Shown: piece after piece, positions 25,973 to 56,442 of the stretch
Position numbering within the stretch: the first letter of the stretch is position 1
How the letters are laid out: the number at the start of each line of letters is the position of its first letter
NCBI RefSeq assembly: GCF_024138125.1
Contig: NZ_CP099994.1
Coordinates: forward strand, 124,001 to 188,000
Direction of reading: 5' to 3'
Source: Halorussus salilacus
GTDB taxonomy: Archaea; Halobacteriota; Halobacteria; Halobacteriales; Haladaptataceae
DNA: 64,000 nucleotides
Translations under genes and position numbers: made by a program
Notes under the pieces: generated by a model
The model's database searches: none
What the model saw: only the letters and a program-made list of their open reading frames with translations
Told to the model about the DNA's origin: nothing

Positions 25973-26645
25973 CGGGCCCGTCGACCGGCGCGGCCCACTC
26001 GACGGCGTTGCCGACGACCCGCTGAATCTCGGGCTGTCGGTAGATGGGGTAGGTCTCGTGGCCGGGCCGGAAGTAGAACACCTTCCCCGCGCCGCGCCGG
26101 TAACAACAGCCGCTGCGGAACACCTCCCCGCCCTCGAACCAGCTGGTGAACACCAGCGTCTCGGGCGCTGGCACGTCGAAGCGCTCGCCGTACATCTCGG
26201 CCTCGGGGACCTCGACGTATTCGTCGATTCCGTCGGCGATGGGGTGGCCGGGTTCGACCACCCACAGCCGCTCGGTCTCGCCGCGCTCGCGGTACTTGAG
26301 GTCGCAGGTCGTGCCCATCAGTCGCTTGAATATCTTCGAGAAGTGGCCCGAGTGCAGCACGACCAGCCCCATCCCCCCGAGGACACGCTCGCGGACGCGC
26401 TCGACCACCTCGTCTGCCACCTCGTCGTGGGCCTCGTGGCCCCACCACGTCAGCACGTCAGTCCCGTCGAGCACCGACTCGGTCAGGCCGTGCTCGGGGT
26501 CGTCGAGGGTGGCGGTCCGGGTCTCGAACCCGCGGTCCCCGAGGAACCCCGCGATGACCTCGTGGATTCCCTCGGGGTACACCTCGGCGACCTCCTCGTC
26601 CTCGCGCTCGTGCCGGTACTCGTTCCAGACGGTGACGCTGGTCAT
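25932..26645 (-). CDS. ThuA-like (trehalose utilisation) protein
   Basis: 237 residues with a class I glutamine-amidotransferase-like fold: [10 protein letters not shown] at the start, [28 protein letters not shown] and the C-terminal [18 protein letters not shown] region. This matches the ThuA family, which in haloarchaea often carries WWGH and FYFRPGHE motifs. The family is linked to oxidation or epimerisation steps in sugar use, but the reaction here is not known. Start ATG 26645. Its 3' end lies in a tandem repeat. Confidence 0.85.
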
Positions 26646-26752
26646 GGGCGTAGTTGCCGTGCCACTGCATTACTGTTGACGGCTCACTTCGAGCGAATAC
26701 TTGGTATCGGCGGGAGTCCTGCGATTCGAGGACCTGTAGGAAACGAGAACGG

Positions 26753-26886
26753 CCAGAAAGCCCTCGGCCGGTCGCGGTCGCTCAGCGACATATCCTCGCT
26801 CGCTTCGCTCACTCGGATAGGGGTCGCTGAGACGACCACGGGCCTTCGGCCCGCGACCGGCCGACCCCTTTCATTCCCGCCCGCGG
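26753..26886. ncRNA. Structured dispersed element, copy 1
   Basis: 134 bases bounded by CCAGAAAGCCC and CCCCTTTCATTCCCGCCC, ends shared with a second copy at 56319-56442. Inside, an outer stem (TCGGCCGGTCGCGG with CCGCGACCGGCCGA) and an inner stem (CTCAGCGAC with GTCGCTGAG) enclose a hairpin with ATCC/GGAT ends. The stems differ in sequence from copy 2 but pair equally well. It occupies most of the gap between the ThuA and MBL-fold genes. Strand is not decided. It may be a structured RNA or a non-autonomous mobile element. Confidence 0.6.
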
Positions 26887-26938
26887 CGGCTGGTCAATCG
26901 AGCGCCAGACACCCGAAAAGACGACTCCCGAAACCCTC

Positions 26939-27937
26939 CTACTCCGCCTCGGCCGAGACGCCGTGGTCGCCGAAAATCGCGTCGAGGTCCGGGTCCTCCT
27001 CGCGGAGTTCGTACCCCTCGTCGGTCTTCGCGACGACGCCCTCGCGGTCGAGGTGGTCGAGGTGGGCGTACGCCTCGCCCGGCCCGTGGAGGATGTGGAT
27101 GTTCGAGAGTTCGCCGAAGAGGTCGGCGCTGACCGTCCACGCGTCGGCGACCCCGCGCTCGCGCAGGACCGAAACGACGCGCTCGGTGCGCTCGCGGTGG
27201 TGAGAAAGTATCTCGCGAGCGCGCCCGGTCGGGTCGTCGATGGCGTCGCGGTGGCCCGGCCACGCGCGTGCGTAGTCGTTTCGAATAATCCGGTCGAGCG
27301 AGTCGAGGTAGGCCCCGAGCGGGTCCTCGACTCGGGGGTCGGCACCGCCCACGTTCGGGGTGTACTTCGGCAGGAGGGCGTCGCCCGCGAACAGCTCGGT
27401 GCCAGACTCGCCCGCGAATTCGAACCCGGTGAGTCCCGCGGCGTGGCCGGGCAGGTGGACCGCTTCGAGTTCGGCGTCGCCGAACTCGAAGCGGTCGCCG
27501 TCGGCGAACGTCTCGACGGTCGGGGTCTCGCCCCGTATCTCCTCGTGGAGTTCGAGGAAGTCCAGCAGTTCCTCGCGCTTTTTCTCGGGGATGCCCCAGT
27601 CGTCGAACAGGCCGCGCCGGTCGATCTCGACCTCGTGGCTGGCCTCTTCGCTTCCGACCATCTCGGCGTCGTCCTCGTGGACGTAGACCGCGGCGTCGCC
27701 AGCGGCCTGTATCTCCCCGGCGAGTCCGGCGTGGTCGTGGTGCCAGTGGGTCAGCACGACGGCGTCCACGTCGGCGAACGTCAGGCCGTACTCACCGAGG
27801 CCCTCGCGGAACTGCTCGCGGGCGTCGTCCGTGGCGACTCCGGTGTCGACCAGCGCGGTCGTCCCCGACTCGGCACCGAGGACGTACGCGTCGTTGCGCC
27901 CCTCGAAGACGGTGTTTCCGAGCTGAATCCGTTTCAC
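26939..27937 (-). CDS. Metallo-beta-lactamase-fold hydrolase
   Basis: 332 residues from GTG 27937 (VKRIQLGNTVFEG). The dinuclear metal site motif THWHHDHAG lies near residue 65, with the later ligands in LPGHAAG and a C-terminal WPGHRDAI. A winged-helix-like C-terminus (DLFGELSNIHILHGPGEAYAHLDHLDREGV) follows, as in LACTB2-type hydrolases. It likely cleaves a thioester or phosphoester; substrate unknown. The 5' region is shared with a divergent zinc-ribbon gene and holds a palindromic site. Confidence 0.85.
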   Translation of the reverse strand: MKRIQLGNTVFEGRNDAYVLGAESGTTALVDTGVATDDAREQFREGLGEYGLTFADVDAVVLTHWHHDHAGLAGEIQAAGDAAVYVHEDDAEMVGSEEASHEVEIDRRGLFDDWGIPEKKREELLDFLELHEEIRGETPTVETFADGDRFEFGDAELEAVHLPGHAAGLTGFEFAGESGTELFAGDALLPKYTPNVGGADPRVEDPLGAYLDSLDRIIRNDYARAWPGHRDAIDDPTGRAREILSHHRERTERVVSVLRERGVADAWTVSADLFGELSNIHILHGPGEAYAHLDHLDREGVVAKTDEGYELREEDPDLDAIFGDHGVSAEAE

Positions 27938-49052: not shown

Positions 49053-49700
49053 CTACCACACCGCCACGGCCCTGACCGGCGCGCCGTCGGCGTCGGGAAG
49101 CGGTAGCGGATACGCCCTGAGTTCGAATCGGTCTGGGAGGCCCGAAAGCCCCGTCAGGTTCTCGACGATGAGGCGTTCGCTACCGAGCAGTGTGTGGTGG
49201 GCGGGGACGCCCGCCGGTTCGCCGTCGCGCTCGGTTCCGCGCGCGCTCGGCGAGGGGTCGACGCTCAGGGCGTCCACGCCCACGCAACAGCCGTTCTCCG
49301 CGCACGCTCTCGCGGCTGCTTCGCTCAGATACGGGTGATCGTAGTAGGCGTCTGACCCCCACTCGTCGGCCCAGCCCGTTCGAATCGCGAGCAGGTCGGC
49401 GTCGGGGTCGTCCGGCAGGTCGCCCGGGCGAATCGGCTCGCGCGCCCGCTTGTCCGAGCAGTCCACGAGTCGCGCGTCGAACGCGAACCGCGCGGCGTCG
49501 AACGCGTCGAGAGTCCCGCCGTCGGGTTCGGTGTGGCTCGGCGCGTCGACGTGGGTCCCGGCGTGACTGCCCATGCGAATCTCGGTCACGCGATAGCCGT
49601 CGGCCTCGTGGGTCGCGGCCGGGGCGCGCTCGACCGCGGGGTCGCCTGGGTAGACGGTCACGTCGTCGTCCAGCGGATGGGAGAGGTCTCGGGTCGGCAC
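49053..49700 (-). CDS. Cyclase-family metal hydrolase (kynurenine formamidase-like)
   Basis: 215 residues from GTG 49700 (VPTRDLSHPLDDDVTVYPGDP). The metal motif SHAGTHVDAPSH lies near residue 45, a further Asp/Glu-containing AIRTGWADEW follows, and GVDALSVDPSPS leads to the C-terminal HHTLLGSERLIVENLTGL. This is the arylformamidase/cyclase fold with a Zn or Mn site. It hydrolyses an amide such as N-formylkynurenine or a related lactam; no tryptophan-degradation genes adjoin. Confidence 0.85.
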   Translation of the reverse strand: MPTRDLSHPLDDDVTVYPGDPAVERAPAATHEADGYRVTEIRMGSHAGTHVDAPSHTEPDGGTLDAFDAARFAFDARLVDCSDKRAREPIRPGDLPDDPDADLLAIRTGWADEWGSDAYYDHPYLSEAAARACAENGCCVGVDALSVDPSPSARGTERDGEPAGVPAHHTLLGSERLIVENLTGLSGLPDRFELRAYPLPLPDADGAPVRAVAVW

Positions 49701-56142: not shown

Positions 56143-56206
56143 TGGCCGGGAGTTGTCGGGCGAGGGGCTAATGGTTTCGGAATCGGGCTTCGGGTAGTCT
56201 GGCGTA

Positions 56207-56254
56207 TTTTCTGGAAGATTGGTGATGGAGTTTTCTGGAAGATTGGTGATGGAG
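56207..56254. repeat. 24-base tandem repeat, two copies
   Basis: TTTTCTGGAAGATTGGTGAT recurs at 56207 and 56231 without mismatch. It lies 65 bases upstream of the hemE start on the minus strand, in the region that should hold its promoter. The 372-base gap 56143-56514 otherwise holds only the structured element below. Confidence 0.8.
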
Positions 56255-56318
56255 GGTGGTCCGGCTCGAATGGTCCTGTCGGTTCGCTACGAGTCGAAGA
56301 AAGACCCGACGTGAACGC

Positions 56319-56442
56319 CCAGAAAGCCCCCGCCCGCTCGCGGTCGCTGTGCGGGATATCCGCGCAAACCGCGCGCGGATAGTGCCCGCACAGACGACTA
56401 AAACGAGCGCGAGCGGGCGGCCCCTTTCATTCCCGCCCGCGG
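56319..56442. ncRNA. Structured dispersed element, copy 2
   Basis: 124 bases with the same ends as copy 1 (CCAGAAAGCCC and CCCCTTTCATTCCCGCCC). The outer stem is GCCCGCTCGCG with CGCGAGCGGGC, the inner stem GTGCGGG with CCCGCAC, and the inner hairpin ATCCGCGC with GCGCGGAT. Every stem differs from copy 1 yet still pairs, while the joining words (GGTCGCT, ATATCC, GGATAG, GACGAC) are kept. It lies between hemE and the AI-2E-family gene, in a region with no reading frame I can support. Confidence 0.6.

Follow-up and report, generated by a model that had tools for sequence, protein, structure and literature searches.

A haloarchaeal family of covarying hairpins with DNA-like stems

Two elements of about 130 bases in the genome of Halorussus salilacus share their ends, and their stems differ in sequence and still pair. 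The initial annotation of the window (the whole 64,000-nucleotide stretch analysed here, contig NZ_CP099994.1, positions 124,001 to 188,000) read this compensating change as the mark of a selected RNA fold, and offered a haloarchaeal noncoding RNA family or a non-autonomous mobile element as the possible identity. What keeps the two arms of such a hairpin complementary while their letters change?

Fold of the two window copies

Both elements lie where they had been reported, with the described stems present and paired. Copy 1 occupies 26755..26883 of the plus strand (core from GAAAG at 26756 to CTTTC at 26872) and copy 2 occupies 56321..56439 of the same strand (core from GAAAG at 56322 to CTTTC at 56428); they match covariance model R1, built from 40 copies, with 108.6 and 128.3 bits, respectively. 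The shared ends are exact in both copies, CCAGAAAGCCC at 26753 and 56319 and CCCCTTTCATTCCCGCCC at 26865 and 56421. Each copy forms one long hairpin, with a stability relative to dinucleotide shuffles of z -6.3 (copy 1) and -8.0 (copy 2), and none of 200 shuffles matches the single-strand fold stability of either copy.

From the outside, the fold begins with GAAAG/CTTTC, followed by a CCC/CCC internal loop, the 13-bp stem P1 and a 4-bp GTCG/CGAC stem. The three stems recognised initially all pair, but a fourth had been overlooked, formed by the conserved ends across the CCC/CCC loop. In copy 1, the 5' arm of P1 (TCGGCCGGTCGCG, 26764..26776, plus strand) pairs with the 3' arm CGCGACCGGCCGA (26852..26864), and GTCG (26777..26780) pairs with CGAC (26833-26836). 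Further inward are a one-base bulge on the 3' side, the 9-bp stem P2 (CTCAGCGAC at 26781..26789 paired with GTCGCTGAG at 26823-26831), a bulged A directly after the P2 5' arm (26790), opposite three or four bases, and the tip stem P3, which is free in sequence among copies and is predicted by folding at 26791..26819 (TATCC..GGATA) in copy 1. The linker between CGAC and the 3' arm of P1 is unpaired and may form a small hairpin of its own, for copy 1 an optional GGGCC-TTC-GGCCC predicted within 26837..26851. The architecture is thus rigid, and the stem letters vary yet remain complementary.

Two further observations concern the window. A direct repeat of about 25 bp (TTTTCTGGAAGATTGGTGATGGAG, twice) lies just upstream of copy 2 at 56204-56256, and an isolated near-match to the element 5' end (CCCGAAAGCCC) occurs at 49141-49151 without a full element.

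Distribution, sites and setting

The family is confirmed to be real and much larger than two copies. A BLAST search with copy 1 locates 51 places in its own genome, a sequence pattern gives 123 matches versus 70 in the reversed control, and model R1 gives 115 matches at E <= 0.001, a few of which are one place matched on both strands. Covariance-model matches extend to 203 of the 292 haloarchaeal genomes of a class-wide sample and to 59 of its 77 genera; this screen scored the best 11 candidates of each genome, without individual inspection of weak matches. In a phylum-wide sample, 14 of 148 genomes match, all among the 24 of the order to which Halorussus belongs, and none of the 124 genomes outside this haloarchaeal order does. 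An exact pattern finds at least 120 stretches in a collection of named species; all 80 titles among the matches listed are haloarchaeal, from Halorussus, Halosimplex, Haloarcula, Halomicroarcula, Halovenus, Halopiger and other Halobacteriales. Viral contigs contain no match to one exact element pattern, and phage records none to one copy by BLAST. The haloarchaeal family surmised by the initial annotation is therefore borne out, with pairing retained across its copies.

Copy number varies widely within the genus. The 18 Halorussus genomes hold 115 (own genome), 96, 11, 113, 37, 60, 58, 1, 71, 0, 8, 50, at least 150, 42, 57, 107 (a genome that is 62% complete), 13 and 84 copies, and thus range from none (G024) and one (G296) to at least 150.

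The elements are mostly intergenic, 8 of 88 copies overlapping an open reading frame called by a simple score. The element 5' side is towards the gene start in 56 of the 77 copies that could be placed (11 of the 88 could not), and copies facing a start codon lie mostly 100-200 bp upstream of it. There is no pattern with respect to the replication strand among 75 chromosome copies (35 runs versus 38.0 expected). Three loci (L001, L003 and L007) duplicate other stretches and are excluded from the counts of gene overlap and placement and from the site comparison below.

Between 47 loci of the own genome and 40 of G147, seven pairs occupy the same site, three of them with both flanks matching, compared with about 0.6 pairs expected by chance if some 3000 intergenic regions, an assumed rather than measured number, were equally open. 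The elements in these seven pairs are about 82% identical, and their similarities fall at percentiles 54, 58, 58.5, 72, 80, 88 and 91 of 1840 cross-genome pairs; elements at shared sites are no more alike than random pairs. The combination of shared sites and unlike stems implies that places persist while stems turn over. Hot spots could explain such persistence, as could gene conversion among copies or the retention of elements that are of use.

Retention for use is central to the first alternative, in which the hairpin is a resident promoter-proximal DNA element (a cruciform insulator, a terminator or a protein-binding site) that is kept where useful, with gene conversion in polyploid cells making the copies uniform. 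The same-site pairs, the upstream spacing from start codons and the presence of an element at the L013 site in several species all agree with it. However, one congener has none and another a single copy, and the copy-1 site has no space for an element in most comparable relatives: the intergenic stretch around copy 1 (26645..26971, taken without strand) measures 327 bp here and 39-71 bp in 10 of 17 relative regions (nine genomes, one of them twice), the other seven regions not being comparable in this way.

The sister genomes G292 and G302, which are 94-96% identical, also speak against residence. Twelve loci were compared, of which L167 could not be placed. Three elements (L148, L154 and L159) are absent from the partner genome, and at L083/L173 the G292 copy has been cut down to its ends, leaving a deletion stub. 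At another site, shared as L163/L175, every stem is different and the same odd 3' end, CCCCTTTATCC, is kept in both genomes, which indicates that the interior was replaced or that the site was hit twice. At the copy-1 site and the G292/G302 loci, the flanks of filled and empty sites never align to the base, and neither a clean insertion boundary nor a target duplication was found at the compared sites. Given these absences and the stub, we regard a resident element as a minor possibility.

Several kinds of repeat accompany the elements. Directly upstream, many Halorussus copies are flanked by tandem repeats of 54-57 bp that each include the first ~20 bases of the element (arrays at C1:1889813-1890118 of the own genome, L012 and L047), and 27-bp tandem repeats resembling GGTGGACTGTGTCACCGGCCGATTCCC, which are small palindromes, lie directly downstream in L011, L012, L014 and L019. 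In several genera (L016, L029, L031 and L033; also L065, L070 and L073), the element is followed by another module, conserved and structured (CCTCCCCAACCGACTGCG..TCGTCCCTCGCGCG..). Contig C1 of G274 carries weaker-scoring hairpins in pairs of opposite orientation, about 24 bp apart (for example, 1017398-1017514 with 1017538-1017654), which resemble a two-hairpin composite. A 51-bp mini-element, made of two small free-sequence hairpins joined by GAG or similar, is inserted into the main hairpin, at its linker or tip, in L176, L038 and L042 and in the right modules of L023, L029 and L033; it is present in G292 and absent from the same place in G302 (L176/L157).

Pairing statistics and the origin of covariation

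In a MAFFT alignment of 40 copies, 96.8% of the cells pair, and none of 500 shuffles reaches any of five pairing measures; summed over stems P0-P2, 114 cells have changed on both sides and three on one side. Among 49 model-aligned copies, the 1862 cells include four G-U pairs (0.2%), eight A-C and 21 other mismatches, with two one-sided standard changes versus 211 two-sided. Model-fitted alignments are biased towards their own structure, and the MAFFT result is concordant; the RNase P sequence L142 was left out of alignment A2 and the long element L038 out of A1. The control, RNase P RNA of 17 Halorussus genomes scored on its predicted consensus structure, has 105 G-U pairs in 1700 cells (6.2%), and 36 one-sided versus 64 two-sided changes. 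Across 234 copies from many genera (six of 237 candidates having been dropped with fewer than 8 of 13 bases paired), 8815 cells contain 50 G-U, 97 A-C and 316 other mismatches, part of the last probably due to the Halosimplex group being offset by one base. The plus-strand G-U fraction is therefore 0.2-0.6%, and that of A-C, which is G-U on the minus strand, is about 1.1%.

These figures bear on the second alternative, a transcribed family of structured noncoding RNAs, either RNA genes or cis-acting RNA leaders, with a selected fold. A strong conserved fold with conserved unpaired nucleotides is what such a family would offer, and reading along the minus strand leads into the adjacent gene more often than away (17 versus 5 in the own genome, p 0.017; 12 versus 7 in G147, p 0.36). 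Stems with a single mismatch favour A-C over G-T (30 versus 14), the direction of minus-strand wobble. RNA under selection for pairing would be expected to show G-U pairs and one-sided steps beside the two-sided ones, as the RNase P RNA does; here G-U is nearly absent and two-sided changes occur without one-sided intermediates. In addition, the window has no Rfam match above the gathering score, and some congeners hold 0 or 1 copies.

Copies shared by the sister genomes give a direct view of how stems change. In the three common pairs (L089/L153, L168/L162 and L157/L176, the last from fetched partner regions), all six stem differences are one-sided, so that shared copies decay uncompensated, and the fourth shared site has swapped its stems entirely. 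The claim that compensating change shows a selected RNA fold is not supported by these comparisons, and we consider an RNA family unlikely; copying of arms at the DNA level, together with turnover of copies, fits the pattern better than base-by-base RNA compensation. What stands of the earlier interpretation is the haloarchaeal family, its conserved fold and its possible mobility.

The mismatches carry a further asymmetry. When distinct stems with a single bad pair are counted, the C is kept and its G lost in 62, the G is kept in 19, and two are T-T, although the rows are not fully independent. If decay is even, this asymmetry suggests either that the minus strand folds, on which these mismatches read G-T, G-G and G-A, or that mutation is strand-biased; it hints at the minus strand as the folded one.

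One plasmid copy provides an example of arm copying. This copy, L126, belongs to a plasmid group related to Haloarcula marismortui pNG500; GGATATGTCGCTGA stands in place of the GGATAGGGGCCGCTGA of its plasmid relatives, so that one arm now complements the other exactly and the bulge is lost. This matches the footprint of template switching, a replication error that, according to PMC8794818, overwrites one hairpin arm with the complement of its partner and thereby yields a two-sided change in one step. That account deals with RNA genes, whereas here the process would act on a dispersed repeat. Arm copying should erase bulges, yet L126 is the sole genuine case (of two hits) among about 270 motifs; something therefore preserves the bulges, which argues for recognition of shape.

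Mobility and candidate mobilisers

Short, non-coding and multi-copy, with inverted ends and with presence and absence between close relatives, the hairpins have the properties of a MITE or small mobile repeat. We found neither an autonomous partner or transposase with matching ends nor, among the loci examined, any autonomous form whose arms enclose a gene.

Y1 enzymes recognise hairpins, an activity that would suit an origin as an IS200/IS605 (PATE) remnant, or as a REP element that relies on a Y1 HUH transposase to move. PATEs are abundant in Haloquadratum (PMC3119063), but this origin is very improbable, as copy number does not track the presence of Y1_Tnp, which is missing from six genomes with many copies (G147 with 96, G293 with 113, G162 with 71, G295 with 60, G297 with 50 and G294 with 37).

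A second candidate was suggested by Haloarcula plasmids (L121 and L123-L129), on which the element lies about 500 bp ahead of an OB-fold gene; two JP-L23 plasmids have the element and this gene alone in common, and their left flanks differ. The product has weak OB-fold matches, below the cut-off, and no PHROG match. Homologues occur in 15 of the 18 genomes of the genus, including those with zero and one copy, and are absent from G297, G301 and G302, so that this gene is not the driver.

Mobile palindromic repeats are a known kind of element, and three systems invite comparison. In integron attC sites, the stem sequence is free, the fold and the extrahelical bases are conserved, and the bottom strand is recognised in single-stranded form; the haloarchaeal hairpin resembles them in the first two features and differs in that many of its copies have tandem repeats on either flank. 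Among the elements of fungal mitochondria, the double-hairpin type shows compensating change. Together with palindromic GC clusters, such elements are mobile, GC-rich intergenic hairpins that merge and shuffle and have constrained stems (PMC4478555); they differ from the present family in being organellar, shorter (about 42 bp) and unrelated in sequence. Closest in host is SMR-A of Haloquadratum walsbyi, which PMC3119063 presents as an element of about 110 bp whose inverted ends are prominent and which occurs in tens of copies, lacks a transposase and is mobilised by unexplained means. The likeness thus covers host group, size, inverted ends, copy number and lack of a transposase. By description, not by sequence comparison, the two differ: SMR-A copies are conserved, commonly at >95% identity, and target PATEs (PMC3119063), whereas the stems of our hairpin vary between copies and its setting is promoter-proximal. 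Searches of open-licence literature listed no paper on the haloarchaeal hairpin repeat, although it may have been published elsewhere; within that scope, the fixed fold, free Watson–Crick stems and haloarchaea-wide spread make it a new variant.

In sum, we conclude that these elements are probably non-autonomous mobile DNA hairpins that form a family within the haloarchaea, a reading supported by copy numbers of 0 to at least 150 in one genus, the kept fold, the Watson–Crick stems, their turnover and their uncompensated decay. The mobile alternative offered at the outset is thereby strengthened by variable copy number and by presence, absence and whole-stem replacement between sister species. 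Weighing on the other side are the missing clean boundary, target duplication and autonomous partner, the sharing of sites above chance, the rarity of bulge erasure and the non-random placement relative to gene starts. A mobile hairpin of this kind would spread by transposition or by conversion among copies, and its spread may pass through folded single-stranded DNA recognised by shape. The arms would stay complementary if one were copied from the other by template switching at the hairpin, if well-paired copies alone could spread, or both.

More tentatively, the family might represent a new archaeal class of mobile element, in which shape, and not sequence, would mark folded single-stranded DNA for movement by an undescribed enzyme and arm-templated copying would let stems drift while staying perfectly paired. 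If true, this class would be a natural system with apparent covariation that arises without RNA selection. Covariation ranks as the strongest evidence that an RNA is functional, and here about 100 copies per genome display it strongly in a form that looks made by DNA. With hundreds of copies in dozens of genera, the family offers a means of asking whether RNA covariation can be imitated by template switching and the turnover of copies, and it points to a mobilising activity in haloarchaea.
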